From contig NZ_LT629799.1 of NCBI RefSeq assembly GCF_900105785.1, positions 868,001 to 932,000 of the forward strand: 64,000 bases of DNA, in the 5' to 3' direction. The notes below the pieces were generated by a model that had not been told where the DNA came from, did no database searches, and saw nothing but the letters and a program-made list of their open reading frames with translations. The stretch comes from Microlunatus sagamiharensis. GTDB taxonomy: Bacteria; Actinomycetota; Actinomycetes; Propionibacteriales; Propionibacteriaceae. Of this stretch, positions 13,273 to 44,335 are shown in pieces (within the stretch, counting starts at the first letter, position 1; every line of letters starts with the position of its first letter). The position numbers were made by a program, and so were the translations under genes.

Positions 13273-13946
13273 GAGGTGCTCCCGATCGAGGTGGTGGTGC
13301 GGACGGAGGAGGTGGTGCGCGGTCGGGCGGGCACGCCGACCCAGGTCTGGTCGTCGGGGAGGTCGGTCAGCAGGACCGCGCCCATGCCCAGCACGGCACC
13401 CGCGCCCACGGTGGAGTCCTCTCGGACGCTGCTGTTCATCCCCAGGTACGCGGCGCGCCCGACGTGGACGTGGCCGCCGAGGACGACCCCGGAGCAGAGC
13501 GTGGCGAAGTCGGCCACGGAGTCGTCGTGGGTGAGCACGACGCGAGGCATGACGACCACGTGCCGGCCGAGGCGCACGTCGGTGGTCAGGACGGCTCCGG
13601 CCAGGACGACGCTGCCGGACCCGACCCGGCAGGTCGCGGGCACCGACGCGAGCGGGTGCACGTAGGTCGCGTAGCGCTCGTCGGTGACCCCGAGCCCGGC
13701 AAGCCGGTCGACCACCGTGGCCCGTCCCGCCCCACGGCCGACGCACACGAGGAGCTGCGCGTCCGGATGCGCGGCGGCGTCCTCGAGCGTGCCGAGCACG
13801 GGGACGCCGCCGACGAGGGTGCCCTGCAGGTTCGGGGCGTCGTCCAGCACGCCGCGGACCTCGTGGCCGGCCGGGTCCTCGGCCAGCGCGGCGAGGACCT
13901 CGCGGGCCAGCCCGCTCGCAGCGACGAGGACCAGCGGGACGCTCAT
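13269..13946 (-). CDS. NeuD/PglD-family sugar O- or N-acetyltransferase
   Basis: A protein of 225 residues. The N-terminal part (VPLVLVAASGLAREVLAAL) is the Rossmann-like nucleotide-sugar binding half of NeuD/PglD proteins. The C-terminal half is a left-handed beta-helix of hexapeptide repeats (VGSGSVVLAGAVLTTDVRLG, VVMPRVVLTHDDSVADFATL) followed by VGAGAVLGMGAVLLTDLPDDQTWVGVPA. The TH-D segment is where the catalytic His of PglD-type enzymes lies. It likely acetylates the amino group installed by a flanking aminotransferase, using acetyl-CoA. It overlaps both neighbours by 4 bp. Confidence 0.85.
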   Translation of the reverse strand: MSVPLVLVAASGLAREVLAALAEDPAGHEVRGVLDDAPNLQGTLVGGVPVLGTLEDAAAHPDAQLLVCVGRGAGRATVVDRLAGLGVTDERYATYVHPLASVPATCRVGSGSVVLAGAVLTTDVRLGRHVVVMPRVVLTHDDSVADFATLCSGVVLGGHVHVGRAAYLGMNSSVREDSTVGAGAVLGMGAVLLTDLPDDQTWVGVPARPRTTSSVRTTTSIGSTS

Positions 13947-15082
13947 GCGGACCGACCGGCGTCGACGAGCACGTCGACCACCCGCCCCTGCTGCGTCTCG
14001 TCCATCTGGTGGAAGAGCGGCAGGATCAGCGTGGAGTCGGTGAGGTGCTCGGTGTTCGGCAGCGAGCCGGGTGCGGCGAGGTCGGCGTACGGCGGCTGGC
14101 GGTGGGTCGACATGATGCCGCGACGCGCGGAGACGTCCGCGTGCGCGAGCCGCTCGAGCAGGCCCTCGCGGTCGAGCGGGTAGTCCTCGCCGACCTCGAC
14201 CCAGAAGGACTGGAAGTTGCTCTCGCCCCACGCCGGGTCGGCGACGGTACGCAGGCCGGGGACCTCGGCGAGGAACTTCGCGTACGTCGCCGCCAGCTCG
14301 CGGCGGCGGGCCACGACCTCGGGCAGCCGCCCGAGCTGCACGAGGCCGACGGCGGCCTGCAGGTCGGTCATGCGGAAGTTGAAGCCGACCTCGTCGTAGC
14401 TCTCCGGTGGCGCGAGGACGGAGGCGTGGCGGTCGACCGCGGAGACGCTCATCGCGTGCTCACGGAGCGTTCGGGCCCGGTCGGCCCAGTCTCCCCGCGA
14501 GGTCGTGATCATCCCGCCCTCACCGGTCGTGAGGATCTTGCGCGGATGGAAGGACCAGGCGGCGATCTCCGCACCGGCCCCTACGGGTCGGCCGCGGTAG
14601 GTCGAGCCGGCGCCGCACGCGGCGTCCTCGACGACCACGATCCCGCGCGGGTCGCAGACGGCGCGGATCGCGTCAAGGTCGACGGGGACACCGCCCTGGT
14701 CGACGACGACCACCGACCGGGTGCGAGCGGTGAGCGCGGCCTCGACCGTCTCGGCCGTCAGATTGCCGGTCGCGAGGTCGACGTCGGCGAAGACCGGGAC
14801 CGCGCCGACGTAGCGCACGGCGTTGCTCGTGGCGATGAAGGAGAACGACGGCACGACGACCTCGTCGCCGGCGCCCACGCCGACCACGACCATCGCGAGG
14901 TGGAGCCCGGTCGTGCAGGACGAGACCGCGACGGCGTGCCCGGCCTGCACCGCCGTGGCGAACGCGCGCTCGAACTCGGCCACCCGCGGTCCCTGGGCGA
15001 CCCAGCCCGACCGCAGGACCTCCGCGACCGCCTCGACCTCCTCCTCGCCGAGGTAGGGGAGCATCACGTTCACGCGGCTCAT
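13943..15082 (-). CDS. DegT/DnrJ/EryC1 aminotransferase, perosamine-synthase/PglE-like
   Basis: A protein of 379 residues starting MSRVNVMLPYLGEEEVEAV with SGWVAQGPRVAEFE, the usual opening of 4-keto-sugar aminotransferases. PLP motifs: SSCTTGLHLAM, VPSFSFIATSNAV, VVVEDAACGAGS and SFHPRKILTTGEGGM, with Lys182 as the Schiff-base lysine. It differs clearly from the other DegT enzyme in this operon, so the locus probably makes either two different amino sugars or one diamino sugar. It is directly followed by the NeuD-like gene (4-bp overlap), the order seen in PglE-PglD type pairs. Confidence 0.85.
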   Translation of the reverse strand: MSRVNVMLPYLGEEEVEAVAEVLRSGWVAQGPRVAEFERAFATAVQAGHAVAVSSCTTGLHLAMVVVGVGAGDEVVVPSFSFIATSNAVRYVGAVPVFADVDLATGNLTAETVEAALTARTRSVVVVDQGGVPVDLDAIRAVCDPRGIVVVEDAACGAGSTYRGRPVGAGAEIAAWSFHPRKILTTGEGGMITTSRGDWADRARTLREHAMSVSAVDRHASVLAPPESYDEVGFNFRMTDLQAAVGLVQLGRLPEVVARRRELAATYAKFLAEVPGLRTVADPAWGESNFQSFWVEVGEDYPLDREGLLERLAHADVSARRGIMSTHRQPPYADLAAPGSLPNTEHLTDSTLILPLFHQMDETQQGRVVDVLVDAGRSA

Positions 15083-16104
15083 GCCATCGCCCCGGCCGGC
15101 TCGCCCGCGCGCTCGTCCTGGCCCGGGTCGAACCCGAGGGCCTTCTCGCTGCGCCACCAGTCGACGAGCCGGCGCAGGCCCTCGTCGAGCCCGATCTCGG
15201 CGGTGAAGCCGAGGTCGCGGGCGGCGGCCTCCGTGCTGGCGAGACGACGGGTCACCCCGTTCACGGGCCGGTCCGGGCCGTGCTCGACCCCGAGGTCGGA
15301 GCCCATCACCGCGAGCAGGCGCTCGGCCAGGCCGAGCAGCGAGGTCTCCTCGCCGCGGGCGACGTTGTAGACGCCCTCGACGACCGGGCTCGTGGCCGCC
15401 AGCAGGTTGGCGCGCGCGATGTCGGTGGTGAAGACGAAGTCCATCGTCTGGGCCCCGCTGCCGAAGATCAGCGGCGGCTGCCCGGCGGCGATGCGCTCCA
15501 TCCACCGGATCAGCACCTCGGTGTAGAGGCCGTGGATGTCCATCCGCGGGCCGTACACGTTGAAGTAGCGCAGGGCGACGTGGTCGAGCCCGGACATCGC
15601 GCGGAAGCTGCGCAGCATGCCCTCGTTGAAGGTCTTCGCCGCGCCGTAGAACGTGTCGTTGTCGTACGGGTGCTGGTGCTCCGTGGTCGGGAACTCCTCG
15701 GCCAAGCCGTAGACCGACGCCGACGACGCCGCGACGAGCTTGCCGACCTGGTGCGCCGCGGCGGCCTCGATCACGTTGAAGGTCCCGTCGACGAGCACCT
15801 CCAGGGCGAGGCGGGGCTCCTCCGCGCACTGCGTGATGCGGATGGCCGCCTGGTGGAACACGACGTCGGCGCCCACGGTGAGGTCGTTGACCAGGTCGCG
15901 GTCGCGCAGGTCACCGACCACCAGGCGTACGCGCGGGTCCTCGAGCGGACCGCGCAGGTTGCCCCGGCGGCCGCGGACGAGGTTGTCGAGGATGCGGATC
16001 TCACCCGCACCCGCGTCGAGCAGCTGGTCGACGATGGTCGACCCGATGGTCCCGGCCCCGCCGGTGACGAGCGCCGTGGCCCCCCGCAGCTCGACGCCGC
16101 TCAT
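15079..16104 (-). CDS. NAD-dependent epimerase/dehydratase (extended SDR)
   Basis: A protein of 341 residues. GGAGTIGS near the N-terminus is the GxxGxxG NAD-binding loop. SSASVYG and YGAAK supply the Ser/Thr and YxxxK catalytic residues, and ALRYFNVYGPRMD is typical of UDP-sugar epimerases. A GalE-, WbpP- or WlbB-like UDP-sugar epimerase or dehydratase is likely; the exact substrate is open. It forms the sugar-supply part of the operon with the oxidoreductase upstream and the aminotransferase downstream, with 4-bp overlaps on both sides. Confidence 0.85.
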   Translation of the reverse strand: MSGVELRGATALVTGGAGTIGSTIVDQLLDAGAGEIRILDNLVRGRRGNLRGPLEDPRVRLVVGDLRDRDLVNDLTVGADVVFHQAAIRITQCAEEPRLALEVLVDGTFNVIEAAAAHQVGKLVAASSASVYGLAEEFPTTEHQHPYDNDTFYGAAKTFNEGMLRSFRAMSGLDHVALRYFNVYGPRMDIHGLYTEVLIRWMERIAAGQPPLIFGSGAQTMDFVFTTDIARANLLAATSPVVEGVYNVARGEETSLLGLAERLLAVMGSDLGVEHGPDRPVNGVTRRLASTEAAARDLGFTAEIGLDEGLRRLVDWWRSEKALGFDPGQDERAGEPAGAMA

Positions 16105-17159
16105 CGGACGAGCTCCGGCTCGACCCCGGGCAGGCCGACGACGGGCACCGTGCCACCGCTGGCCAGGCTGGCGCTCGCGGCCTCGAGGACCGACAGCACC
16201 CGCAGGCCCGAGCGTCCGTCGGTCAGGGGCGCGCGGCCCGCCTCGATCGCGGCGGCGAACTCGGTCGCGACACCGGCGAGCGCCTCGGCCTCCTTGAGCG
16301 CCGGGACGACGACGTCGCCCATCCGGTAGGAGACGGTGACGGCCTCGCGCTGCACGGCGGCGTCGACCGCCTGCGTCCGCAGGTCGACGCCCCGGTCGTG
16401 GACCGATATGCGCTGGGCGGGGTTCATGTCGTCCCACACCAGGGTCCGGCGGCTGCCGCCGACGACCATCTGCCTGATCTTGGTGGGGGAGAGCCAGTTG
16501 ACGTTGACGTGCGCGATCGCGCCGTTCGCGAGCGGCAGGTCGAGGTAGCCGACGCAGGCCTTGCCGGCGCCGAGCGGGTCGGCCCCGTGCGCGGTGACGT
16601 CGCTCGGCCGGAGCCCGCCGGGCAGGATGAAGTCGAGGATCGACAGGTCGTGCGGGGCGAGGTCCCAGAAGACGTCGACGTCGGGCTGGACGAGCCCGAG
16701 GTTGATGCGGGTCGAGTCGATGTAGAGCACGTCGCCCAGCTGGCCGGAGGCGATGGTGTCGCGGATGTACTGCACCGCCGGGGTGTAGCAGAAGGTGTGG
16801 TCGATCATCAGCACCTTGCCGGCCGCCTCGGCGGCGCTCACCATGACGGCCGCGGTCTCCGCGTTGTCGGCGAGCGGCTTCTCCACCAGGACGTGCTTGC
16901 CGGCCTCGAAGGCGGCCAGCGCGAGCGGCGCGTGCGTGCGCGCCGGGGTGGCGATGGCGACCGCGTCGACGTCGTCGCGGGCGAGCAGCCGTTCGACCGA
17001 GGTCTCGACCTCGACGGTGGACCGCGTGCCCACGACCTTGCGGGCGCGCTGCTCGTCCAGGTCGCACACGGCGACGAGGTCCCAGGCCGGGTTGGACCGG
17101 AAGTTGCGGACGAGGTTCGGACCCCAGTAACCAGCGCCGATGACGGCGATCGAGTACAT
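16101..17159 (-). CDS. Gfo/Idh/MocA family oxidoreductase, WlbA-like
   Basis: A protein of 352 residues. The N-terminal Rossmann motif is IAVIGAGYWGPNLVR. The family signature EKPLADN (Lys of the active site) lies near residue 95, and a DHTFCYTP segment follows. WlbA/WbpB-type members oxidise C3 of UDP-N-acetylglucuronic acid or related sugars, giving the 3-keto substrate for a WbpE-like aminotransferase, which is encoded three genes on. The ATG at 17157-17159 has GGGGGAG just upstream. The gene lies 44 nt downstream of the giant secreted-protein gene, so read-through from it is possible. Confidence 0.85.
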   Translation of the reverse strand: MYSIAVIGAGYWGPNLVRNFRSNPAWDLVAVCDLDEQRARKVVGTRSTVEVETSVERLLARDDVDAVAIATPARTHAPLALAAFEAGKHVLVEKPLADNAETAAVMVSAAEAAGKVLMIDHTFCYTPAVQYIRDTIASGQLGDVLYIDSTRINLGLVQPDVDVFWDLAPHDLSILDFILPGGLRPSDVTAHGADPLGAGKACVGYLDLPLANGAIAHVNVNWLSPTKIRQMVVGGSRRTLVWDDMNPAQRISVHDRGVDLRTQAVDAAVQREAVTVSYRMGDVVVPALKEAEALAGVATEFAAAIEAGRAPLTDGRSGLRVLSVLEAASASLASGGTVPVVGLPGVEPELVR

Positions 17160-17203
17160 CTCTCCCCCAAGAGGTGTCGGTGGTGCGGTGGACGCAGGTC
17201 GCG

Positions 17204-20200
17204 TCAGATCTGGACGAGGACGTCGACCCAGAAGTTGGTCGAGCTCGGGACGGTCGGTCGGACGTCGCCGGCGCTGCTGACGCCGCCGCTGACCGGCACG
17301 GTGAGCGGGCCGGACGTGTACGAGCCCACGTACGCGAAGGTGGTCGTCGACCACCGGCCGACGGGTGCGTAGGTCGACGCCGTGTAGGTCGTGCCGGCGC
17401 TGACCGCGACCGGCGTGGCGAAGGTGGCGGTGCGCCACCCCGTGGCGGTCTGGGTCGTGGTCGCGGTGCCCATCAGGGTGCCGTCCGGCGCCCAGAGCTT
17501 GACCGTCCGCGCGGTGTTGGTCGAGGCGGCGTAGTAGCGGACCGCGGTCACCTTGCCGGCGCGCGAGGAGCTGAAGCGCACGCCCACCGTCGTCGGCGTC
17601 GTGGACGTCGAGGTCGCCGACGGCGTGCGCGCCGTCGTGTACAGGCTGAAGGTCTGCGAGGCCGTCGTGAACGACCACGACGCGGGCGACGTCATCGGGA
17701 CCCCGCCCGAGCTCGTGGCGCTGACCGTCACCGTGTACGTCGTCGAGCTCGTGAGGTCGGCGCTCGGGTCGAAGGTCAGCGTGCGGGTGGTCGCGCTGTA
17801 GGTCCCCGAACCCGCGACGGTGGACCCGTTCGGAGCCTTCACCGTGATGCTCAGGCCGGTGGTCGTGACCGCTCGGGCGAAGGTCGCCGTGACGTTCGTG
17901 CCGAGCCCGACGTTGGTCGCCCCTGCCGCTGGTGCCCTGGACGAGAGGGTCGGCGGATCGGTGTCGGCGATCGTGAACGACCAGGTCCGAGGGCTGGTCA
18001 TCGCCAGGCCGGACGTGTTGCTGGCGGTGACCGCGGCGGTGTAAGTACCGGCGCTGGCCAGGGCCGCACCCGGGGCGAACGTCACCGTGCGCGTGGCCGG
18101 GTCGTAGGCCGTGGTGCCGGTGACGGCGACGCCCCCGCTGGTCCGGAGGGTGAGCTGGACGCTCGCCGGGTCCACGTCCCTCGCGAAGGTGGCGGTGACC
18201 TTCGTGCCGGCGGCGAGGTTGGTCGCGCCGGAGCCCGGCGTGGTCGACGTCACCGCGGGCGCGACGGTGTCGGCCGTGGTGAAGGTCCACGACGTCGGAG
18301 CCGCCATGGCGACGCCCGAGGTGTTCACCGCCGTGACCGACGCCGTGTGACCGGTGGACCCGGCCATGGGCGACGAGGGCGTGAAGGTGACCGTCCTCGA
18401 GGCTGCGTCGTAGGTGGTGGCGCCGCCGACCGAGGCCGAGGTGCTGGTGTTCTTCACGGTCAGCACCACGCTGGCCGGGTCGACGGCCCGGGCGAAGCTG
18501 GCCGTCACCTTGCTCGTCGCCGTCACGCCCACGGCGCCCGGCGAGGGGCTCGTGGTCGACACCGTCGGGGGCTGGGTGTCCGCCGTGGTGAACCCCCAGG
18601 TCCTGGGAGCGGCCATGCTGATGCCCGACGTGTTCCGCGCCGACACCGAGACCGTGTAAGCCGTGCTGTCGGCCAGGCCCGAGGTGGGGGTGAACGTCGC
18701 GGTGCGCATGGTCGCGTCGTAGGTCGTGGAGCCTGCGGCGACCGCGGAGGTGTCGGACCGCGCGACGGTGAAGAGCACCGAGGCGGGGTCCACGGGCGAG
18801 GCGAAGGTCGCCGTCACCGTGCTCGCCGTCGGCACGCCGGAGGCGCCGTCGGCCGGGCTGATGGTCGTCACGCTGGGCGGCTGGGTGTCCGCGGTCGTGA
18901 AGCTCCACGCCCTGGGTGCGGACATCGCGACCCCGGACGCGCTGGCCGCCGAGACCGTCGCGGTGTAGGTCGTCGCTCCCGAGAGCGGGGCCGCCAGCGT
19001 GAAGGTGGCCGTCCTGCTGGTCGCGTCGTAGCCGAGCTGGCCGCCGACCAGGCCGCCGCTCGCGTCGCGCAGGTCCAGCTGCAGCGATGCGGGGTCGATG
19101 GCGCGGCTGAAGGTCGCGGTCACGCTCGTGCCGAGCGGGACGCCGGTGGCGGCGCTCGCCGGGGTCGTCGAGGCGACCTGCAGAGGGGTGTCGTCGTTGG
19201 TGTCGAAGACGACGTCGACGTAGTAGTTCGAGCTCGCGTACGAGTGGTCGGGGAAGCCGTCGCCGTAGACGTAGACGCTGCCGGGGTCGACGCTGGCCAG
19301 CGGGGTGTTCACCACGGGGTTGGCGAAGTAGTTCAGGTCTGCGGCGTAGTGCCCCTTCGGGGCGTAGTAGGCGGCGACGTAGGTCGTGCCGGCGACCACG
19401 GGCACGTTGGCGCTGAAGTCGGCGGTCTGCCAGCCGGTGCCGGAGTCGTCGAACGTGAGGCTCGCGAGCTTCTGGCCGGACGCGGAGTAGAGCGTCCCCG
19501 TGTGGGTGCCGGTGTTGTTCGCGTCGCGCCAGTAGCGCAGGCCCTTGACGAAACCGGTGGTCGTCGGCGTGAACCTGAGCCCGAGCGTCACCGCGTCGCT
19601 GTCGCCGCCGTCGGACTGGACCGGCTGCGTGGTGGTCTCCATCAGGGAGCACGGGCAGGCGGCGGCGCCGGACGTCGTGAAGCTCACGCTGACCGACCCC
19701 GACATCTTGGGGCCGCCGGTGCTGACCGCGTCGCTCACGGTCATCGTGTACCTGGTCCCGGGCGCCAGGTCGGTCGCCGGCACGAACGTCGCCGTCGTGC
19801 CCTGGGACTCGGTGCCCGTCATCCCCTCGACGGCGGCGCCGTCGGAGGCGCGGACCACGCTGATCCGTGCCGAGCCCGGCTGCACCGCGGTGTTGAACCT
19901 CACCTGCAGGTGGTCGTTCACGGGCACCGACCGGGCGCCGTCACCGGGCGAGGTGGACGAGACCGTCGGCCTCGTGCCCGCGCTCGGCACGAAGACGGGG
20001 TCCACGAAGTAGTTCGCGTCGGAGGTGTTGCCGGGCGCGTCGCCCGGTGAGTAGGTGTAGCGACCGGCGCCGGCCGGCGTCGACAGCGGTCCCTTCACGA
20101 CCGGGTTGCTCAGCCCGCCGGAGGTGTAGCCGTACCGACCCGTCGACGACGTGTAGCTGACGACGTAGGTCGTGTCCTTCGTGACCTGCTGCGGGGAGGC

Positions 20201-23128
20201 GAAGCTCGCCTCCTGCCAGCCGGACGTCGACTCGGTGGTGGTGACCGCCTGGGCCACCTTGGTCGAGCCGGACCACAGGTTGACCGTGTGCGGGGCGGTC
20301 TCCTCGGGCCGCTTCCAGAACCGGACGCCCGTGACCTGACCGCTCTGGGCCGGCTTGAACGCGACCCCCAGCTTCACGCCCCCGGAGTCGTCGGCCGGGC
20401 CGGCGCTCGGCTGGTCGGAGTCGTCGAACAAGGTGCAGGGGCAGTCGTTCGGCGTCGCGTCCGGGTCGACGGTCGTGAAGCTCCACTGCACCGGGGCGGC
20501 GAGCGTCGCCGCGTTGACCGTCGCGGTGTAGACCGTGCTGCTCGCGAGGCCCTGTGCCGGGTTGAAGGTCGCCGTCCGGCTCGCGGCGTTCCACGTCGTC
20601 GTGCCGGTGATGACGTTCTGCGCGGCGTCGACGACCTGGAAGGAGATGCTCGCGGGGTCGACGACCTTCGAGAAGGTCGCGGTGGCCACGGCGGTCGTCG
20701 CCACCGAGCTCGACCCGGACCTCGGGCTGGTCGCGGTCACGGTGGCCGGGATCGTGTCGTCGGGGGAGAACACCGCGTCGACGTAGTAGTTCGACTGCTG
20801 GTAGCTGTTCGTCGGGAAGGTCGACCCCTGGGCGAAGACGCCGTTCGTCACCCCGGCCCCGCCCGACGCGACGAGCACGCCTGCGTCGTAGGGCCTGCCG
20901 AAGAAGTAGGAGTCGGCGGAGTAGTGCCCCTTCGGCGCGTAGTAGGCCGCCACGTACGTGGTGCCGGCCTCGATCGGCACGGCGGTGCTGAACTGCAGGG
21001 TCTGCCAGCCCGTCGCGCTCTCGTTGGTGAACGTCCCGCTGGCGAGCTGGGTGCCGGAGGCGGAGTACAGGGTCCCGGTGTGCGTGCCGGTGTTCGCGGT
21101 GGCCTTGTAGAACCGGATGCCGCTGACGTAGCCGTCGCGCGTCGAGGTGAACTTGGTGCCCACGGTCACGGGGATGGCGTCACCCGGGTCGGCGACCCTC
21201 GGGGTCGCGACGCCGAAGATCGAGCACGGGCAGCCGGAGCTGACCGCGACGTTCACCGGGACCGAGGTGCGGGCCGAGTCGTCGGTGGCACGCACCTGGA
21301 CGGCCGAGGCGCCGTTACCGGTCAGGATGCCCGAGTAGGTCCAGCTCGTCGTCCCCGTCGCCGGGTGGAAGCTGGCGCCGCCGTCGACCGACACCTCGAC
21401 GCCGGCGACCCGACCGCCCTGGTCGGTCGCCGTGCCGGTGACGGTCAGGAGCGACCCCTGGGTCAGGGACTGACCGGCAGCCGGAGTGGTCACGGTCACG
21501 GACGGCGCCACGGTGTCGGTCGAGGCCGTCACCGCGGTCAGGCCCGGGGCGAGCGTCGTGGCCGGCGCACCCATGTCGGTCAGCAGGTTGAGCGTCGCCT
21601 GCCGCACCCGTGGGTCGGCTGCGGGGCGGTCCGAGCCGTCACCCGACGAGTCCAGCCCCCACGACCACTGGATCGTGCCGGCGGAGAAGACCAGGGCGCC
21701 GCTCGCCGCACGGTAGAGCGTGATGTGGTGGGTCGTCGAGCCCGGGCTCACCGTCGTGCCGAAGTCGCGCAGGTACTCGGGGGTGTCACCCACCGCCGTC
21801 GACATGTCGATGAGGCCGGCAGGCCGGTACCCGTTGTCCAGGTCCTCGTTCGACTCGTAGCCGACCGTGTGGTCGGCGAGCGTGGCCTTCGTGCCGGCGG
21901 CCATCGACGCGAGCGACGTCCCCCGCCAGACGCGGAGCTTGCCCTCCTCCGCGCTCACCTGCATGGGGAAGTCGTCGGAGTTCGCCTGGTAGAGGGTGCC
22001 GATGAGCGCGTTCTCCGGGCCGAACCCGTAGCCCAGGTCGCCGAACCGCGGGTCACGCCAGGTCGCCGTCGGCTCGACGGGGTCGATCGGCGCGTTCGCC
22101 CAGGTGTCCTTGTAGTCGACGATGGTGCGGTTCGGGGTGTTCGAGCCGTCCTGCGAGGGCTCGAGACGGGTCTTCCAGTACACGTCGTTGCCGCCGAAGA
22201 ACGCGAGGTTGACACCCTGGTCACGGGCGTCGGTGACGTTCTTGCGCTGCTCCTTCGTCCAGTACTCGTCGTGCCCGACCGAGAGGAAGACCTTGTGCTT
22301 GGGCAGCAGCGCCGGGTCGGCCGCCACGTCGAGGCCGGAGACGTACGAGACGTCGATCCCGTTCTGCTCGAGGAAGCGGATCATCGGGTACTCGTTCGAG
22401 AACAGGAAGTCCCGCCCGTACGCGGCTCCGCGGGTCGAGTAGGGCCGGTTGTAGCTGATCTTGTAGGCCCGGCCGTTGGCCTTGCCCTCGTAGAAGTCGG
22501 AGCCGCCGTACTTGTTGTAGGCCTGCCAGGTGGAGTCGGAGGTCTGGAACAGCGCCTTGGAGGTGTTCCCGTCGTTGCGGACGACGAAGGGGATGTGCGA
22601 GTCGCCACCGTCGCTGCGGATCAGCCGGGCGATGTAGACGCCGGAGACCGAGGTGGACGGGACGTTCCAGGACGCGGAGACGCCCCACGTCCCGCAGTCG
22701 TACAGCTCGGTGCTGGCGTCGCTCGCGCACGGGGGCTGGACCTGGGGGAGCGGGACGGACGGGGCGATCGTCGTGATGTCCCGGGCGCCGGCGCCCTGGT
22801 ACCAGCCGAGGCGGTAGATCTTGATCGAGTACGCGCGGGCGTCGGTGTTGATCTTGAAGTCGATCCTGGACCCGGCGTTCACGCTGGTCGCCGTGGCGAA
22901 CCCCTGGATGCTGTCGTCGCCGGCGCCGAAGATGTCCCAGTCGTCGGTGCTCCCGGGCAGCTGGTTCTCGCAGGCGACCGCGTTGCCGGTGCACGCGGCC
23001 AGCGCGCGGTCGGCCGGCAGCACCAGCGTGAGCGCGACGGTGGACAGGGCCACCAGGACGGCGAGGGCGGCTGTCCTGGGCGACCTGCGCGTGCCGCCCG
23101 AGGCGGCTCCATGGTGCGTGCGCGTCAC
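17204..23128 (-). CDS. Giant secreted multidomain protein: dimethylformamidase-beta-like domain, DUF4082 modules and Ig-like repeats
   Basis: A protein of 1974 residues. GTG 23126-23128 has GGGGGGAC 4 nt upstream. Residues 1-45 form a signal peptide (arginine-rich start, ALAVLVALSTVALTLVL core, ALA-A cleavage site). Residues about 46-540 resemble the N,N-dimethylformamidase beta-subunit C-terminal fold (YRLGWYQGAGAR, VRNDGNTSKALF, SVGHDEYWTKEQR, FFGGNDVYWKTRLE). An Ig-like domain follows, then alternating DUF4082-like modules (four; three begin CPC) and Big_5/SbsA-type Ig-like domains (seven, the last five in tandem). There is no LPXTG or membrane anchor. Enzyme activity is unproven; the domain is common in large actinobacterial exoproteins. 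It heads the sugar operon, so an extracellular role with the polysaccharide is inferred. Confidence 0.82.
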   Translation of the reverse strand: MTRTHHGAASGGTRRSPRTAALAVLVALSTVALTLVLPADRALAACTGNAVACENQLPGSTDDWDIFGAGDDSIQGFATATSVNAGSRIDFKINTDARAYSIKIYRLGWYQGAGARDITTIAPSVPLPQVQPPCASDASTELYDCGTWGVSASWNVPSTSVSGVYIARLIRSDGGDSHIPFVVRNDGNTSKALFQTSDSTWQAYNKYGGSDFYEGKANGRAYKISYNRPYSTRGAAYGRDFLFSNEYPMIRFLEQNGIDVSYVSGLDVAADPALLPKHKVFLSVGHDEYWTKEQRKNVTDARDQGVNLAFFGGNDVYWKTRLEPSQDGSNTPNRTIVDYKDTWANAPIDPVEPTATWRDPRFGDLGYGFGPENALIGTLYQANSDDFPMQVSAEEGKLRVWRGTSLASMAAGTKATLADHTVGYESNEDLDNGYRPAGLIDMSTAVGDTPEYLRDFGTTVSPGSTTHHITLYRAASGALVFSAGTIQWSWGLDSSGDGSDRPAADPRVRQATLNLLTDMGAPATTLAPGLTAVTASTDTVAPSVTVTTPAAGQSLTQGSLLTVTGTATDQGGRVAGVEVSVDGGASFHPATGTTSWTYSGILTGNGASAVQVRATDDSARTSVPVNVAVSSGCPCSIFGVATPRVADPGDAIPVTVGTKFTSTRDGYVSGIRFYKATANTGTHTGTLYSASGTQLASGTFTNESATGWQTLQFSTAVPIEAGTTYVAAYYAPKGHYSADSYFFGRPYDAGVLVASGGAGVTNGVFAQGSTFPTNSYQQSNYYVDAVFSPDDTIPATVTATSPRSGSSSVATTAVATATFSKVVDPASISFQVVDAAQNVITGTTTWNAASRTATFNPAQGLASSTVYTATVNAATLAAPVQWSFTTVDPDATPNDCPCTLFDDSDQPSAGPADDSGGVKLGVAFKPAQSGQVTGVRFWKRPEETAPHTVNLWSGSTKVAQAVTTTESTSGWQEASFASPQQVTKDTTYVVSYTSSTGRYGYTSGGLSNPVVKGPLSTPAGAGRYTYSPGDAPGNTSDANYFVDPVFVPSAGTRPTVSSTSPGDGARSVPVNDHLQVRFNTAVQPGSARISVVRASDGAAVEGMTGTESQGTTATFVPATDLAPGTRYTMTVSDAVSTGGPKMSGSVSVSFTTSGAAACPCSLMETTTQPVQSDGGDSDAVTLGLRFTPTTTGFVKGLRYWRDANNTGTHTGTLYSASGQKLASLTFDDSGTGWQTADFSANVPVVAGTTYVAAYYAPKGHYAADLNYFANPVVNTPLASVDPGSVYVYGDGFPDHSYASSNYYVDVVFDTNDDTPLQVASTTPASAATGVPLGTSVTATFSRAIDPASLQLDLRDASGGLVGGQLGYDATSRTATFTLAAPLSGATTYTATVSAASASGVAMSAPRAWSFTTADTQPPSVTTISPADGASGVPTASTVTATFASPVDPASVLFTVARSDTSAVAAGSTTYDATMRTATFTPTSGLADSTAYTVSVSARNTSGISMAAPRTWGFTTADTQPPTVSTTSPSPGAVGVTATSKVTASFARAVDPASVVLTVKNTSTSASVGGATTYDAASRTVTFTPSSPMAGSTGHTASVTAVNTSGVAMAAPTSWTFTTADTVAPAVTSTTPGSGATNLAAGTKVTATFARDVDPASVQLTLRTSGGVAVTGTTAYDPATRTVTFAPGAALASAGTYTAAVTASNTSGLAMTSPRTWSFTIADTDPPTLSSRAPAAGATNVGLGTNVTATFARAVTTTGLSITVKAPNGSTVAGSGTYSATTRTLTFDPSADLTSSTTYTVTVSATSSGGVPMTSPASWSFTTASQTFSLYTTARTPSATSTSTTPTTVGVRFSSSRAGKVTAVRYYAASTNTARTVKLWAPDGTLMGTATTTQTATGWRTATFATPVAVSAGTTYTASTYAPVGRWSTTTFAYVGSYTSGPLTVPVSGGVSSAGDVRPTVPSSTNFWVDVLVQI
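17657..19192 (-). repeat. Five tandem Ig-like (Big_5/SbsA-type) coding repeats of about 307 bp
   Basis: Five units of about 102 codons lie end to end. Each begins with a D-T/D-PP boundary, contains TVTATFA-PVDPAS-like and Y(D/S)A-TRT-TF-P segments, and ends W-FTTAD. Units differ at many positions, so this is an old expansion rather than a recent slippage product. Two more units of the same family lie separately in the same gene near 19.7-20.0 kb and 20.45-20.75 kb. Confidence 0.75.
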
Positions 23129-23471
23129 GTCGTCCCCCCGGACCGTGCGGCCGCTCGCGCGGCTCGTCCCGCCACCCCCCGCGGCGGGACCCGCTCACGG
23201 ATGCCGACGGCGTCCGACGAGGCACGCCCTGGTCCAGCACCCGACTCGCAGGTGGTTGGACACTAGGTCGGTCGCGCTGCCGCGAACGAGAAAAGCAAGA
23301 ATCTCCTGAGAGACTCCTGCACGTGTGGGTCTTTGACACCGCTCGTCCGGTCGAGGGGCAGCGCCGGTAACGCTGAACGTGCCGTGGACGATGACCACGA
23401 GGAGGCACGCGGGGACCTCGTCGGCACGCACCACGAGCCGGGCACGGCTCGCCCACAGCCAGGAGCGCCCC
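23129..23471. promoter_or_regulatory. Divergent intergenic region between the giant exoprotein and beta-helix genes
   Basis: This 343-bp stretch has no credible gene. It is less GC-rich than its surroundings, especially 23289-23336. A TAGTGT box (minus strand, 23265-23260) could be a -10 for the giant-protein operon with a leader of about 125 nt. TTGACA at 23333-23338 faces the beta-helix gene, but no well-spaced -10 follows it. No riboswitch consensus was recognised. Confidence 0.35.
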
Positions 23472-24734
23472 ATGCGTCGACCACTGACCGCGCTCGTGTT
23501 CCTCGTCCTCGCGGCTCTGCTCGGCGGCAGCATCGCGGCCGGCGCGGCGACGCCGAACGACACCTCCTGCCGCAAGGCCACCGTCTCCGGCTCGCCGAGC
23601 ACCAAGGAGCTGCTGGCCTACGACGCGTGCCGGTTCGACAAGCTCGACGCCGCCGTCGCGGCGCTGAAGCCCACCCCGGCGCCGGGGTCGACCCCCGCTG
23701 CGTCGAGCACGCCGAGGCCTTCTGGCGGACCCACGTCGACCGTCCCCAGCCCGACGCCCAGCCCGACCCCCAGCCCGACGCAGCCGGACGTGCGCCCCGC
23801 TGCGTGCGTCGGTGCGGCGAACACGCCGGGAGGTGCGGACCCGTGGGGAGGTTGCTGGCCCGGCCCGCAGAACACGGGCTACCCGCGGGGCGTCGCCGGT
23901 GACACCCGCAAGGCCGTCACGCTCACCGACTACACGGGCCCGACCACGATCCGCACCTGCGGCGTCGTGATCGACTCGAAGACGATCAAGCAGGACCTGC
24001 TGGTCGAGGCCGGGAACGGCACCGACCTCACGAAGCCGTGCGTCACCATCACCAACAGCCTCGTCCAGGGTGTGATCTTCTCGGAGCGGACGACGTGGGG
24101 GCCGGTCGTCGTCCGTGACAGCACGGTGAGGCCGAACGGCCTCTCCTGGTGGGAGAACGTCGGACGTTCCAACACCCTCGTCGAGCGTGTCGACTCCACC
24201 GGCTCGCAGGGGGTGGTGAAGTGCGACATGAACTGCGTCGTCCGTGACTCCTGGGTCCACGGGATGCGGCTGGGTGGTGCGTACCACTACAACGCGGCCG
24301 GCGGGAACGGGACCGACCGCTTCACCGTCGAGCACAACTGGTTGACCTGCGGGGACTGGTCGTCGAAGGAGGACGACGTCGTCAGCGGGAGCAACGGCGA
24401 CGCCGGGTGCTCGGCCGTCATCGGCTTCTACGGCGACTACGCCCCCTTCACCAACAGCACGATCCGCCGCAACCACCTGCTGTCGACGTTCGACATGAGC
24501 ACCTCCGGCAAGAACCAGCAGTCGGCCTACTGCCTCAACCCCGGCTACTACCCGGGCAAGCCGTACGGCACGGTGTCGAAGGTGGCGATCACCGACAACG
24601 TCTTCGGGCGCGGCGGGTCCGGGCGGTGCGGGGTCTTCGGGCCGGTCAACAGCATCGGGAAGGACCTCGGCGACAACACCTGGTCTGGCAACCGCTACGA
24701 CGACGGGACGGCGATCCCGGTCGAGCTCGGCTGA
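23472..24734 (+). CDS. Secreted right-handed beta-helix-like protein
   Basis: A protein of 420 residues. ATG 23472 follows AGGAG by 6 nt. It has a signal peptide (ALVFLVLAALLGGSIAAGAA, cleavage near residue 26), a Pro/Ser/Thr linker with PSPTPSPTPSP, then a C-terminal domain of about 300 residues. That domain contains repeated short beta-strand units (CGVVIDSKTI, CVTITNSLVQGVIF, VVRDSTVRPNG, NTLVERVDST, CVVRDSWVHG, FTVEHNWLTC), the pattern of parallel beta-helix proteins such as pectate-lyase-like folds. Paired cysteines are frequent. No catalytic motif is recognisable. The C-terminal third is paralogous to the fragment at 1-392. Only 29 bp separate it from dxr. Confidence 0.72.
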   Translation: MRRPLTALVFLVLAALLGGSIAAGAATPNDTSCRKATVSGSPSTKELLAYDACRFDKLDAAVAALKPTPAPGSTPAASSTPRPSGGPTSTVPSPTPSPTPSPTQPDVRPAACVGAANTPGGADPWGGCWPGPQNTGYPRGVAGDTRKAVTLTDYTGPTTIRTCGVVIDSKTIKQDLLVEAGNGTDLTKPCVTITNSLVQGVIFSERTTWGPVVVRDSTVRPNGLSWWENVGRSNTLVERVDSTGSQGVVKCDMNCVVRDSWVHGMRLGGAYHYNAAGGNGTDRFTVEHNWLTCGDWSSKEDDVVSGSNGDAGCSAVIGFYGDYAPFTNSTIRRNHLLSTFDMSTSGKNQQSAYCLNPGYYPGKPYGTVSKVAITDNVFGRGGSGRCGVFGPVNSIGKDLGDNTWSGNRYDDGTAIPVELG

Positions 24735-24751
24735 GCCAGGGTCCCACCTGA

Positions 24752-24757
24752 CACACT
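24752..24757 (+). promoter_or_regulatory. Candidate -10 box (CACACT) for leaderless dxr
   Basis: CACACT ends 6 nt before the dxr GTG. It lacks the leading TA of the consensus but has the spacing seen at proS and ribF, and no Shine-Dalgarno sequence is present. Confidence 0.3.
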
Positions 24758-24763
24758 GAGGCG

Positions 24764-26023
24764 GTGCGGAGCGTCGTTGTCCTGGGCAGCACCGGTTCGA
24801 TCGGCAAGCAGGCCTTGGAGGTCGTGGGACGGCGTCCGGAGGAGTTCCGCGTGGTCGGCCTGGCGGCCGGGGGAGCGTCGGTCGAGCTGCTGGCGCGCCA
24901 GGCGCTGGAGACCGGGGCCCGGGTCGTCGCCGTCGCCCGGGCGAGCGCCGTGCAGGACCTCCAGCTCGCCTTCTACGCCGAGGCGAGCCGGCGTGGATGG
25001 TCGAGCGGCGAGGCGACGCTGCCTAGGATCCTCGGCGGTCCCGACGCCGCGACCGAGCTCGCCGGGATGGACTGCGACGTGGTCCTCAACGGCATCACCG
25101 GCTCCACCGCGCTGCGACCCACGCTGGCCGCGCTCGCGGCCGGGACGACGCTGGCGCTGGCCAACAAGGAGTCGCTGGTCGTCGGCGGGCCGATCGTGCT
25201 GGCCGCGGCCGCGCCCGGGCAGATCGTTGCCGTCGACTCGGAGCACTCGGCGATCGCCCAGTGCCTGCGGGGCGGGCGCGCCGAGGAGGTCGACCGGCTC
25301 GTCCTGACGGCGAGCGGGGGACCGTTCCGTGGACGTACGCGGGCGGAGATGGCCGACGTGACCCCGGCCGAGGCGCTGGCGCACCCGACCTGGGACATGG
25401 GCCGTGTGATCACCACGAACTCGGCCACCCTGATCAACAAGGGCCTCGAGCTGCTCGAGGCCCACCTCCTCTACGGTGTCGACCTCGACCGCATCGACGT
25501 CGTCGTGCACCCGCAGTCGCAGGTGCACTCGATGGTGCAGTTCGTCGACGGCTCGACGCTGGCGCAGTGCTCGCCGCCGGACATGCGGCTGCCGATCGCC
25601 CTCGCGCTGGGCTGGCCCGACCGGGTGCCCGGGGCGGCCGCGCCCAACGACTGGTCCCGCGCGCAGACGTGGACCTTCGAGCCGCTCGACGACGAGGCAT
25701 TCCCTGCGGTCGAGCTGGCCAGGACCGCCGGGCGCCACGGGGGCAGCGCGCCTGCGGTCTACAACGCCGCGAACGAGGTCTGCGTGGACGCCTTCCACGA
25801 GTGTCGCCTGCCGTTCCTCGGCATCGTCGACGTGGTCTCCCGGGTCCTCCGGGAGCACGTGGCGGCGCCTCCGGAGGGCCCTGCCGCGCAGCCCGGGGCC
25901 TCGTTGGTCGGCAGCGCCGACCTGACCCTGGAGTCGGTGCTCGCCGCCGACGCCTGGGCCCGCGCGAGGGCAGCCGCGCGGGTGGAGCAGGTGGGCGGCC
26001 GCCCAGCAACGGCGCGGGACTAG
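24764..26023 (+). CDS. dxr: 1-deoxy-D-xylulose 5-phosphate reductoisomerase
   Basis: A 419-residue enzyme of the MEP isoprenoid pathway. It converts DXP to 2-C-methyl-D-erythritol 4-phosphate with NADPH and a divalent metal. The N-terminus has GSTGSIG (residues 8-14, NADPH loop), then [21 protein letters not shown] (metal-binding Asp and Glu), SGGPF and AHPTWDMG. The length fits the family. The C-terminus ends [20 protein letters not shown]; a diverged second copy of this end lies at 27153-27262 just before rseP. The TAG stop interlocks with that of the antisense dioxygenase gene at CTAG (26020-26023). In most actinobacteria dxr runs directly into rseP, so the interruption here is unusual. 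Confidence 0.96.
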
Positions 26024-26895
26024 GCCGGCAGGCAGGCCAGCTGCTCCGGGGTCAGCCCGGCGCGGATCCGGGCGTCCTCGTCGGCCGTGAAGGGCTCGGC
26101 CGCCGGCATGGTCTTGATCGGGTTGCGTGACGTCCAGGTGAAGGTGACGGAGTACCGGTCCTTGTCCTCCGCCGGGCTCGCCCGGTGAAGGATCCTCGCC
26201 GGGTCGGCGAGCACCGCCGTCCACCGGGGCCCGACCGCCTTCACCCACTCCGCGGGCGGCACGACCTTCTCCATCTCGACGTCCGGCACGAAACCGGCCA
26301 CGTACCTGAGCTCCTTGACGGCGGGGTCGGACACGGGACGCGGCACGTACTGCAGCGCTCCGCCCTGCGGTGTCACGTCGTCGATCCAGACCAGGATCTT
26401 GAAGACCTTGTGGTCCTCGATGTCGCGGTGCCACTGACGCGTGCCCTCGACCCGGCCGTCCGCCACTTCGCGGTAGACCGCGGCGCCGTAGTAGGTGACC
26501 GGCAGCCCGACGTAGTTCTCCACGAGGTCGAGCAGCTCCTGCTGCAGGCCCCAGCGCCACAGCGCGGCGTCGGCCATCAGCTCGTCGTGCGCCGGCTTCA
26601 GCGCGCTGGCTCCCTCGGGGTCGCGGCCGGCGAGGGAGGCCTTCAGGTCGTCGAGGATGACCTTCAGCCGCTCGGTGCCCGGGATGCCGAGCGCGTCGAG
26701 CGACGTGACGGCGACGCCGGTGGTCTCGACCTCCTCGATCAGCGCCGCGGTGGACGGGCTGATCGTCGGCAGGTGGGGGCGGTGCTCCCGCACCCGGGCC
26801 TCGTACGCGTTCTGCACCAGCCGGTTGACCGGCGCGAACCGCGCGATCACCTGACGCTTGGCACGGTTGGTCACCCGGTTGAGCGTGCTCGTCAT
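26020..26895 (-). CDS. PhyH-like Fe(II)/2-oxoglutarate-dependent dioxygenase
   Basis: A protein of 291 residues with a jelly-roll oxygenase signature. [10 protein letters not shown] places His156 and Asp158 as the first two iron ligands. [19 protein letters not shown] supplies the distal His237, with Arg248 as the likely 2-oxoglutarate anchor. [10 protein letters not shown] between them is typical of phytanoyl-CoA dioxygenase (PF05721) relatives. The N-terminal 40 residues are basic and helical. The substrate is unknown. It lies antisense between dxr and a duplicate dxr 3' end, and its stop codon interlocks with the dxr stop. It could be cargo of a recombination event. No RBS of note; the ATG at 26893-26895 is the first good start. 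Confidence 0.78.
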
Positions 26896-27152
26896 CGTCC
26901 CGCCTCTCTGATGGCCCCGTGCGTCGGGGACCCGGGCGCCCTGAGACCTGGGTCCGTCCGTCGGACCGGACGTGGCGGGCGGCCTGCTCGAAAATTAGCG
27001 TCGAGGCCGTTGCGCGACCGGATGTGTGAAGAACCTTCCCGGACTCCTCCCGTCGCGAAGACCAGAACCACGAGGGAGCCGTCGGGGGGGCCGCCACGGT
27101 CGGAGGACCGGCCGGAGATCGCCACGCACGACCGGCACCGACGTACGCTCGT
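26896..27152. promoter_or_regulatory. Junction region between dioxygenase gene and dxr remnant
   Basis: This 257-bp stretch has no recognised gene. AAAATTAGCGT at 26991-27001 is a local AT-rich island. On the minus strand it contains TAATTT, a possible -10 for the dioxygenase gene; on the plus strand it contains TAGCGT. A second plus-strand TANNNT box, TACGCT, lies at 27144-27149 and could drive rseP across the remnant. GGTCCG/CGGACC (26950-26966) form a short inverted repeat. Confidence 0.4.
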
Positions 27153-27262
27153 CGTCGGTCAGCAGCGCCGACCTCACCCTCGAGGCGGTGCTGGCGGCCG
27201 ACGCCTGGGCGCGCTCGCGCGCCGCGGCCCTGGTGGACCAGCCGGTGGAGCAGCAGACGTAG
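27153..27262 (+). pseudogene. dxr': Remnant of a second dxr 3' end
   Basis: In the frame ending with TAG at 27260-27262 the sequence reads [24 protein letters not shown] and then AALVDQPVEQQT. This matches the C-terminus of the intact dxr ([24 protein letters not shown]) at nearly every position, with roughly 80 percent nucleotide identity by eye. No further dxr homology is visible upstream. The stop codon is followed immediately by AGGAGG, the RBS of rseP, so this fragment keeps the native dxr-rseP junction. It is therefore probably the tail of the original dxr, left after the rest was replaced or displaced. Confidence 0.8.
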
Positions 27263-27275
27263 GAGGAGCGCAGCG

Positions 27276-28574
27276 GTGGACCTGGTGATCTACGTCCTGG
27301 GGGCCGTCGTCTTCTTCGCCCTCGTGATGGCCTCGATCGGCCTGCACGAGATCGGGCACCTGGTGCCGGGCAAGCTCTTCGGGGTCAAGACGACGCAGTA
27401 CTTCGTCGGCTTCGGCAGGACGCTGTGGTCGACGCGTCGCGGCGAGACCGAGTACGGCGTCAAGGCCGTCCCGCTCGGCGGCTACGTGCGGTTCGTCGGG
27501 ATGTACCCGCCGGACAAGGCGCACCCGGACCAGGTCCGCAGGACGCGGACGGGGCTCTTCCAGACGATGACCGACCAGGCCCGTGCCGCGGAGTGGGAGG
27601 ACATCCGGCCCGAGGACGACGGCCGGCTGTTCTACCAGAAGCGCGGCTGGCAGAAGGTGATCATCATGGCCGGGGGGCCGATGATGAACATCCTGCTCGC
27701 CTTCGGCCTGCTGCTCGGCGTGACCGCGACCTACGGGGTCAACCGGCCGCAGCTGACCGTGGCCGAGGTGCAGGAGTGCATCGTCCCCGGCGACGCCACC
27801 GACACGTCCTGCGCGGGCAAGGCGCCGACGCCCGCGGCGCAGATGGGGCTGCAGCCGGGGGACCGCGTGGTGGCCTTCAACGGCCGTCCCGTCGACTCCT
27901 GGGCCGACGTCTCCACGCTCATCCGCGGCAACCTCGACCGACCCGCGCAGCTGACCGTCGAGCGTGGCGGGCAGCGCGTGGTCCTGCCCAGCGTGAACAC
28001 CGTGGTGCAGGGCGTCCCGGACGCGCTCGACCCCTCCAAGCGGGTGGCCGCCGGGTTCCTCGGCGTCGTCCCCACGGTCGAGCGCGTGCGTGGCGGGCCG
28101 GTGGCGGTCGTCCAGGACATGTGGACCATGACCGAGCAGACCGCCGTCGCGCTCGTGCACTTCCCGGCCAAGGTCTTCTACACCGGCTACAACCTGGTCA
28201 CCGGCAAGCCGCGCGACCTGTACGGGCCGATGAGCATCCTCGGCGCCAGCCGGGCGGCGGGGGAGATCGCCTCGACCAACCAGATCGGCACCGCCGACAA
28301 GGCCGCGGCCCTGTTCTCGGTGCTCGGCTCGGTCAACCTGTTCGTGGCCCTGTTCAACTTCGTCCCGCTGCTGCCGCTGGACGGCGGGCACATCGCCGGG
28401 GCCCTCTGGGAGGCCGTGCGCCGGCGCCTGGCCGCCCTGTTCAAGCGACCCGACCCGGGTTACGTCGACACGGCCAAGCTGCTGCCCGTCGCGTACGTCG
28501 TCGGCCTGCTGATCGCGGTCTCCGGCTTCGTGCTGATCCTCGCCGACGTGATCGACCCGATCCGGCTGTTCTGA
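27276..28574 (+). CDS. rseP: RIP-type site-2 metalloprotease (RseP/Rip1)
   Basis: A 432-residue membrane metalloprotease that cleaves anti-sigma factors within the membrane. The first helix contains HEIGH (His24, Glu25, His28; zinc ligands and catalytic Glu). A PDZ domain follows around residues 160-250 (AAQMGLQPGDRVVAFNGRPV). The third zinc-ligand motif is FNFVPLLPLDGGH near residue 370. A last helix closes the protein. The GTG start has AGGAGG upstream, overlapping the stop of the dxr remnant. Since the intact dxr is now 1.25 kb away behind an antisense gene, rseP probably needs its own promoter, perhaps TACGCT at 27144. Confidence 0.95.
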   Translation: MDLVIYVLGAVVFFALVMASIGLHEIGHLVPGKLFGVKTTQYFVGFGRTLWSTRRGETEYGVKAVPLGGYVRFVGMYPPDKAHPDQVRRTRTGLFQTMTDQARAAEWEDIRPEDDGRLFYQKRGWQKVIIMAGGPMMNILLAFGLLLGVTATYGVNRPQLTVAEVQECIVPGDATDTSCAGKAPTPAAQMGLQPGDRVVAFNGRPVDSWADVSTLIRGNLDRPAQLTVERGGQRVVLPSVNTVVQGVPDALDPSKRVAAGFLGVVPTVERVRGGPVAVVQDMWTMTEQTAVALVHFPAKVFYTGYNLVTGKPRDLYGPMSILGASRAAGEIASTNQIGTADKAAALFSVLGSVNLFVALFNFVPLLPLDGGHIAGALWEAVRRRLAALFKRPDPGYVDTAKLLPVAYVVGLLIAVSGFVLILADVIDPIRLF

Positions 28575-28609
28575 GCCGCGCCCGGGCGCCTGCCCGCCAC
28601 CCGCGCGAC

Positions 28610-28615
28610 TACGCT
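28610..28615 (+). promoter_or_regulatory. -10 box (TACGCT) for ispG
   Basis: TACGCT fits TANNNT and ends 10 nt before the ispG ATG. This predicts a leader of about 3 nt or none. Confidence 0.45.
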
Positions 28616-28625
28616 GGACCACGCC

Positions 28626-29798
28626 ATGACCACCGTGAACCTGGGCCTGCCCGCCCTCCCCCCGCCCGTGCTCGCCCCGCGCCGCAAGACGCGCAAGATC
28701 AAGGTGGGCAAGGTGGACGTGGGCGGCGACGCCCCGATCAGCGTGCAGTCGATGACCACCACGCTGACCTCGAACATCAACGCCACGCTCCAGCAGATCG
28801 CCGAGCTCACCGCGACCGGCTGCGACATCGTGCGCGTCGCCGTGCCGAGCCAGGACGACGCGGACGCGCTGCCGGCCATCGCGGCCAAGTCGCAGATCCC
28901 CGTGATCGCCGACATCCACTTCCAGCCCAAGTACGTCTACGCGGCCATCGACGCGGGCTGCGCGGCCGTCCGGGTCAACCCGGGCAACATCCGCGCCTTC
29001 GACGACCAGGTCAAGCAGATCGCGGCCGCTGCGAAGGACCGGGGCACCTCGATCCGCATCGGCGTGAACGCGGGCTCGCTCGACAAGCGGCTGATGGCCA
29101 AGTACGGCAAGGCCACGCCCGAGGCGCTCGTGGAGTCGGCGCTGTGGGAGGCGAGCCTGTTCGAGGAGCACGACTTCCGCGACTTCAAGATCAGCGTCAA
29201 GCACAACGACCCGGTCGTGATGGTGCGCGCGTACGAGCTGCTCAGCGAGGCGTGCGACTACCCGCTGCACCTCGGCGTGACCGAGGCGGGGCCGGCCTTC
29301 CAGGGCACGATCAAGTCCTCCGTCGCTTTCGGGGCGCTGCTGAGCAAGGGCATCGGCGACACGATCCGCGTCTCGCTCTCGGCCCCGCCGGTCGAGGAGG
29401 TCAAGGTCGGCCTGCAGATCCTGCAGTCGCTGAACCTGCGCCCCCGCAAGCTCGAGATCGTCTCCTGCCCCTCGTGCGGGCGCGCCCAGGTCGACGTCTA
29501 CACCCTCGCCGAGAAGGTCACCGCCGGGCTCGAGGGCATGACGGTCCCGCTGCGCGTCGCCGTCATGGGCTGCGTCGTCAACGGTCCGGGCGAGGCCCGC
29601 GAGGCCGACCTCGGCGTGGCGTCGGGCAACGGCAAGGGCCAGATCTTCGTGCGCGGCGAGGTGATCAAGACGGTGCCGGAGGCCGACATCGTCGAGACCC
29701 TCATCGAGGAGGCCATGCGCCTGGCCGGCGAGATGCCGGCCGGCGAGAGCGGGGCCCCCGAGGTCTCCGTCGCGGGCAGCGCCCCGGTCGGCGTCTGA
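28626..29798 (+). CDS. ispG: 4-hydroxy-3-methylbut-2-en-1-yl diphosphate synthase (flavodoxin/ferredoxin type)
   Basis: A 390-residue iron-sulfur enzyme of the MEP pathway that converts MEcPP to HMBPP. The N-terminal TIM-barrel part has [15 protein letters not shown] and RVNPGNI. The C-terminal part binds a 4Fe-4S cluster through Cys281 and Cys284 (SCPSCGR) and Cys316 ([10 protein letters not shown]), with the Glu of NGPGE as fourth ligand. The length is normal for the two-domain bacterial form. It acts in the same pathway as dxr, two genes upstream, and is followed 28 bp later by a GNAT gene, the usual actinobacterial order. Confidence 0.97.
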
Positions 29799-37955: not shown

Positions 37956-39950
<1,995 letters not shown>

Positions 39951-39974
39951 GCGACGCTCGCAATCTCGGCACTC

Positions 39975-39998
39975 GAGGGACCGCGGGCGCGGTCCCTC
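39975..39998 (-). promoter_or_regulatory. Perfect hairpin in the APC permease leader
   Basis: GAGGGACCGC and GCGGTCCCTC (39975-39984 and 39989-39998) flank a 4-base loop, 25 nt upstream of the GTG start. TCTACT at 40015-40010 on the minus strand may be the -10, which would put the hairpin inside a leader of about 50 nt. No U-tract follows, so it is not an ordinary terminator. Confidence 0.4.
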
Positions 39999-40038
39999 CA
40001 TCCGAGTAGAGCGCGACGAGGACCCCTCTTGGCGAGTC

Positions 40039-40057
40039 CTTCACGCGATTTCTACGC
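40039..40057. promoter_or_regulatory. CTTCACGC/TTCTACGC tandem motif upstream of the permease
   Basis: CTTCACGC (40039-40046) is followed about 10-11 bp later by a TTCTACGC half-site (40050-40057). It lies about 25 bp upstream of the possible -10 of the permease gene and resembles the CTTCACG repeats upstream of kdp, so one OmpR-type regulator such as KdpE may bind both. Confidence 0.35.
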
Positions 40058-40098
40058 CTCGACCACGCCGCGACGAGCCCGCCGCCGTGACCCCGCGC

Positions 40099-43400: not shown

Positions 43401-43434
43401 GACCCGATCCTCTCTCGCCCGTCGCCCGGGGACG

Positions 43435-44334: not shown

Positions 44335-44335
44335 G

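Follow-up and report, generated by a model that had tools for sequence, protein, structure and literature searches.

The genes menE-menC-MW1733-ytkD-MW1731 of Staphylococcus aureus are described as a noncontiguous operon (PMC7154746). A different kind of rearrangement is reported at the Escherichia coli housekeeping gene icd, whose versions with and without the prophage e14 differ at 12 bases and for which the report infers excision at 11-bp direct repeats (PMC4759930). In Mycobacterium tuberculosis, dxr is described as essential and as sharing an operon with the downstream protease gene Rv2869c (PMC2409342). Our literature check was limited to one pair of whole words, 'Microlunatus' and 'dxr', and no paper was found that contains both.

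We analysed a window of 64,000 nucleotides, positions 868001–932000 of a single-contig 4.405 Mb Microlunatus genome (Propionibacteriaceae), and compared it with a genus sample of 20 genomes that includes its own. Two relatives recur below: G005, an M. flavus-like genome, and G001, which carries an oxygenase gene next to dxr. The closest named dxr loci, among the best 80 of 498 confirmed, belong to Microlunatus flavus (89%), a Friedmanniella metagenome-assembled genome (80%) and then other Microlunatus. A concatenated tree of nine genes, dxr and the eight downstream of it (3933 columns; the window, G001, G002, G005 and G007; genes upstream of dxr left out), placed the window as sister of G005 with 100/100 support. 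The features of the locus are as follows.

24764–26023, plus strand: dxr, 419 codons, with matches to Pfam PF02670, PF08436 and PF13288 and to TIGR00243
25901–25990, plus strand: dxr-proximal copy of the repeated tail (residues 380–409), aligned with 27152–27241
25991–26023, plus strand: new end of dxr, 10 residues and stop, beyond the repeat, which stops at 25990 and 27241
26020–26023: palindrome CTAG, contained in the stops of both dxr (plus) and the oxygenase gene (minus)
26020–26895, minus strand: gene for a PhyH-like 2-oxoglutarate/Fe(II) oxygenase, 291 codons, assigned by conserved residues and a profile–profile match
26896–27131: stretch between the oxygenase start and the second dxr end, aligning weakly with G001
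27132–27262, plus strand: second dxr 3′ end, truncated at its 5′ side, 40 residues and stop, recognized by alignment to the intact tail and to G005
27262–27268, plus strand: Shine–Dalgarno-like GGAGGAG of rseP
27276–28574, plus strand: rseP (site-2 protease), GTG start, with PF02163 and PDZ matches; TIGR00054 is below its curated cut-off
28626–29798, plus strand: ispG (gcpE), next in the dxr–rseP–ispG cluster, with PF04551 and TIGR00612 matches

We conclude that the insertion is real and probably old, that part of a gene end was duplicated with it, and that it is shared with a relative. We regard it as normal genome evolution that has left an unusual operon layout. As in the S. aureus men operon, a gene on the opposite strand (the oxygenase, minus) sits inside a conserved co-directional cluster (dxr, rseP and ispG, all plus) with no terminator-like site seen; unlike there, the intruder is lineage-specific and flanked by a partial gene duplication, and the arrangement is read from sequence. 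With icd, as its e14 junction is reported, the locus has in common a housekeeping gene that carries a replacement 3′ end while the old end is displaced. It differs from that account in that no integrase or prophage gene was recognized, the insert being about 1.2 kb with one recognizable gene, and in that excision at dxr can be deduced only from the uninterrupted junction of G005.

The second dxr end is real. A dxr query against the whole genome at E 0.001 returned exactly two places, the gene and the second tail; the two tails share 74 of 90 nucleotides (82.2%; BLAST E 5e-21), and their local alignment scores 100, where none of 200 base shuffles exceeded 41. The first-pass annotation had thus rightly seen a second dxr end at about 80 percent DNA identity, joined to the ribosome-binding site of rseP, but its description of the tail proteins as near-identical was too strong, as 7 of 30 residues differ. 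It had also placed the remnant at 27153–27262; the right edge stands (TAG at 27260–27262), whereas comparison with G005 moves the left edge to about 27132. Homology between remnant and G005 extends from 27132 through the stop and the ribosome-binding site into rseP (local score 153), where the equivalent G005 sequence runs TAG-GAGG-rseP start, and GGAGGAG overlaps the remnant stop in a similar arrangement. The remnant is therefore the positional equivalent of a normal dxr end. All 20 genomes of the genus sample contain a single full dxr; a second, partial place occurs in the genome of the window alone. Compared with the G005 tail, the remnant differs at 4, 4 and 7 sites in the three codon positions and the intact tail at 6, 4 and 12, counts too small to reveal a difference in selection between them. 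The predicted RNA fold of the remnant leader is not convincing (z −1.88; 6 of 200 shuffles fold equally well), no RNA family reached gathering score in 24600–28700, and 26896–27275 gave no DNA match in plasmids.

The intact dxr begins at a GTG that aligns in four relatives and is complete through its C-terminal domain (TIGR00243 350.8 bits against a cut-off of 315.7; DXPR_C at 270–401). The repeated codons 380–409 lie mostly within the DXPR_C match, so the enzyme would probably have been impaired had the insertion brought no substitute for this end. The new end at 25991–26023 is probably flanking DNA of the insert; dxr of G001 likewise has a long end of its own.

The antisense gene ends in the dxr stop, as first annotated, through the common CTAG. 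Its assignment as a PhyH-like dioxygenase holds as a relation, which the sequence comparisons support, and not as a direct Pfam match. H156-x-D158, H237 and R247 are invariant across 10 aligned oxygenase sequences, a HxD...H plus arginine pattern that we take to be the signature of PhyH 2-oxoglutarate/Fe(II) oxygenases. Profile–profile comparison with hhalign against seven PF05721 proteins gave 88.3% (E 2.8e-6), rising to 97.8% (E 7e-13) when a linking sequence from G006 was added; in the first of these comparisons the N-terminal 100 or so residues lie outside the match. The Pfam model, on the other hand, misses the window protein: nothing was found even at E 10, the PF05721 cut-off was not reached and the gene is absent from the three PF05721 places of its own genome. 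Nor did Pfam match the copies in G001 and G002 or three homologues from the other genus described below; the distant relative in G006 falls just below the PhyH cut-off (21.2 against 22 bits), and two plasmid-borne relatives drew only weak, unrelated matches. A PDB search with the sequence and its alignment gave no convincing relative, and a structure predicted from the single sequence was of unusable quality (mean pLDDT 36.5).

Homologues of the oxygenase occur in 3 of 198 family genomes at E 1e-10 (the window genome, G001 and G002) and, at E 1e-5, in 9 of an order sample of 391, namely those three, G006 (27%) and five genomes of one other genus (47–51%). Two genomes of a phylum sample of 396 match, the own genome included, and six Rhizobium and Methylobacterium plasmid records carry relatives at 26–31%. 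Phage records held no match, and none was confirmed in viral contigs. The G002 homologue sits elsewhere and ends in TGA, not in a stop of the CTAG type. Because no match to its neighbour gene turned up in the window genome, G001 or G005 (G007 has a 48-residue match only), the ancestral place of the oxygenase cannot be read from it. The polysaccharide-type genes upstream of dxr (Polysacc_synt, DegT aminotransferases) only suggest a role in surface sugars.

The layout of the window recurs in G001, where dxr stops at 13624, an antisense oxygenase (80% amino acid identity) occupies 13624–14496 and rseP starts at 14756 (coordinates of its stretch); the CTAG of the two stops is common to both genomes. 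Directly before rseP, G001 has CCGGCTCCGACGTACGCTCGATGCCGGTC, which agrees with the dxr tail of G005 at 26 of 29 nucleotides (a score reached by 1 of 1000 dinucleotide shuffles) and, over a slightly longer match, with the window remnant at 30 of 35 (0 of 1000), while against the window's intact tail it does no better than shuffles (965 of 1000 reach the score). Since it matches the G005 tail and the window remnant above shuffles, G001 holds a stub of the same remnant. The layout and stub disfavour a recent tandem duplication, which had already been judged unlikely. The first-pass reading was to fall if relatives carried the same two-copy layout with congruent trees, and G001 comes close to this.

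Elsewhere the junction is tight. Both genes are in view in 19 genus genomes, and in 17 of them the gap between dxr and rseP is −1 to 105 nt, the exceptions being the window and G001 (in G017, outside this count, rseP is not in view), and the G005 junction is uninterrupted and has no oxygenase insert. Among the best 80 of 498 confirmed named loci, 18 had no rseP match at E 1e-5; 61 of the other 62 have a gap of at most 150 nt. The exception is a Microbacterium locus (L100:11083–14346) with 3.3 kb between dxr and rseP; by eye its minus-strand ORFs comprise a Mur-ligase-like gene and another, with no convincing second dxr tail, and it is apparently a separate antisense intrusion at the same junction. 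The genes dxr, rseP and ispG are clustered in most genomes in view. Between rseP and ispG we noted a glycosyltransferase-like gene in G005 (L108:12875–13978) and a DUF222/HNH gene in G006 (L142:2913–4451), and the cluster looks like a recurrent insertion site in the genus.

The first-pass annotation proposed that a foreign dxr had replaced most of the native gene, perhaps arriving with the polysaccharide locus. The comparisons point the other way. Over the 355 codons of the dxr body, protein identity is 94.6% with G005 and 88.2% with G001, in parallel with rseP (95.1% and 89.8%); all nine tree genes are nearer G005 than G001, and a tree of the dxr body from 20 genomes joins the window to G005 with bootstrap 85. 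The polysaccharide locus lies in the same gene order upstream of dxr in both G001 and G005. On the other side of the balance, two diverged tails are present, the intact dxr resembles G005 less in codons 1–30 and in its final stretch than in its body, and over the surface-polysaccharide region at 10.7–23.1 kb (10712–23128) the window is at least as close to G001 as to G005 (identities to G001/G005 of 82/34, 76/75, 85/84, 74/74, 77/70 and 80/71), so that some regional exchange or replacement is possible there. With body and downstream genes congruent, we regard a foreign dxr as very improbable.

The surroundings differ between the genomes in further respects. A beta-helix-like plus-strand gene at 23379–24734 (by eye; no Pfam match) is the only piece upstream of dxr that is missing from both G001 and G005, which have at this site (23027–24747) a minus-strand lipoprotein-like gene whose best match in the window's own genome is 35% and lies elsewhere. 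Alignment with the relatives resumes at 24747, and a CACACTGA box 4–5 nt before the dxr GTG is identical in five genomes. A homologue of the beta-helix-like gene lies between rseP and ispG in G001 (L105:16170–17246; near-identical N-terminus, 33% overall), and this type of gene is thus found at two places around the cluster. Farther downstream, the genes at 37956–47875 have matches in G005, whereas the stretches of G001, G002 and G007 that were compared contain none.

Divergence bears on the age of the insertion. At third positions the window and G001 differ by 29.9% in the oxygenase, 30.3% in dxr and 33.8% in rseP (window and G005: 28.6% in dxr, 24.1% in rseP), and in protein by 19.9% in the oxygenase against 12.0% in dxr and 10.2% in rseP. 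A recent exchange between the window and G001 is therefore unlikely, the oxygenase being about as diverged as its neighbours at third positions and more so in protein. The tails themselves give two signals. By identity the remnant is nearest G005 (85% over 78 nt; its identity to the window's intact tail is 82%), and in a maximum likelihood tree of 93 columns the two window tails group together (79/80, not starred), with remnant plus G005 weakly disfavoured (p-AU 0.044). That tree holds 9 of the 16 rows of a larger one, comprising the remnant and 15 of the 20 intact tails (G003, G004, G011, G013 and G017 were dropped as their tails did not fit the cutting motif), in which the pairing has bootstrap 85. 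The pairing could reflect duplication after the split of the window from G005, or gene conversion between the copies. We also looked for an excision scar in G005, and none was established: matches of its dxr linker to the window's intergenic DNA outside the remnant and to that of G001 are near shuffle level (29 and 11 of 500 base shuffles, respectively, reach the score).

We favour, with confidence a little above even, the explanation that the antisense oxygenase was inserted at the native dxr 3′ end in a shared ancestor, with duplication of about 110 bp of the tail. The oxygenase gene would have entered before the window species and G001, and probably M. flavus too, went separate ways, and the event would have copied the tail such that the left copy, with a short new end, kept the C-terminal domain of dxr complete and the right copy retained the original stop, Shine–Dalgarno and spacing before rseP. 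G005 would then have lost the insert, a clean loss that the two direct repeats would facilitate, and G001 most of the tail. We infer both that this was a single event and how old it is: given the tree ((window,G005),G001) and the shared layout, insertion before the split followed by losses is the simplest history. The DNA may have been captured at a staggered break with fill-in, by a single crossover of a circle or by an integrase as at e14/icd. Against this explanation count the shortness of the G001 stub, the poor alignment of the intergenic region between the window and G001, the pairing of the two window tails in the tail trees, the closeness to G001 of genes upstream of dxr, and the uninterrupted G005 junction, for which loss or exchange must be assumed.

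A rival history is that the M. flavus lineage never carried the insert and that the window lineage received the oxygenase cassette from a relative of G001 outside the sample. Recombination would have taken place on the left in the dxr tail and on the right at a short shared stretch, GACGTACGCTCG, leaving the native tail behind. The absence of the insert from G005, the start of the remnant at a stretch common to G001 and G005, the closeness of the remnant, by identity, to the G005 tail and the several genes upstream of dxr that are nearer G001 all suit such a transfer. But the oxygenases of the window and G001 have diverged as deeply as vertical genes have, which would demand an old, unsampled branch as donor; most of the dxr body (about codons 30–355) is nearer G005; and the tail tree does not favour remnant plus G005. 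We consider it a tenable history, though rather an unlikely one. Alternatively, an element could have entered the dxr 3′ end through an integrase or a single crossover, supplying a gene end of its own, and the oxygenase gene would be all that is left of it. The anatomy is the same as at icd, with an intact gene that has a diverged replacement end and the original end displaced to the far side, and the reported e14 differences and repeats lend this a precedent. However, the 1.25 kb hold no recognizable mobility gene: PHROG gave no match for the oxygenase, dxr or two long overlapping ORFs, and these ORFs, 26185–27288 (plus) and 24695–27097 (minus), have no Pfam match, the searches being confined to the proteins named here. 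The lack of oxygenase matches in phages and of confirmed ones in viral contigs, together with the tight junction in all but one of the named loci with an rseP match, that one without a convincing tail copy, likewise makes an element relic decidedly improbable.

Returning to the insertion in a shared ancestor, we considered how the split cluster might be expressed. On the first-pass view the event would also have parted rseP from its operon promoter. A crude scan of 24600–27400 found no terminator-like site on the plus strand, and a scan limited to sigma-70-like promoters found none. The one weak minus-strand terminator-like site, within dxr (25463–25441), does not stand out from chance (1 found, 0.5 expected). 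With no terminator seen on the dxr strand, read-through from dxr could still reach rseP and ispG, and as the most economical working model dxr–rseP may form a noncontiguous operon; possibly rseP instead has a separate promoter, perhaps weak and local. Under read-through the leftover dxr tail would act as an untranslated leader. We think it quite unlikely, if conceivable, that the oxygenase mRNA, antisense to a dxr–rseP–ispG read-through transcript, ties an isoprenoid enzyme that is essential, and the membrane protease RseP, to a cell-surface-type oxygenase while the dxr tail leader sets rseP translation.

The locus indicates that two diverged gene ends need not imply foreign replacement of a native gene. 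It also illustrates how an insertion on the opposite strand can be tolerated in a conserved cluster whose dxr is probably essential: with the gene end duplicated, both neighbours retain what they require. The three states found, in the window, in G001 with the tail nearly gone and in G005 with an uninterrupted junction, can be used to test dxr–rseP co-transcription.
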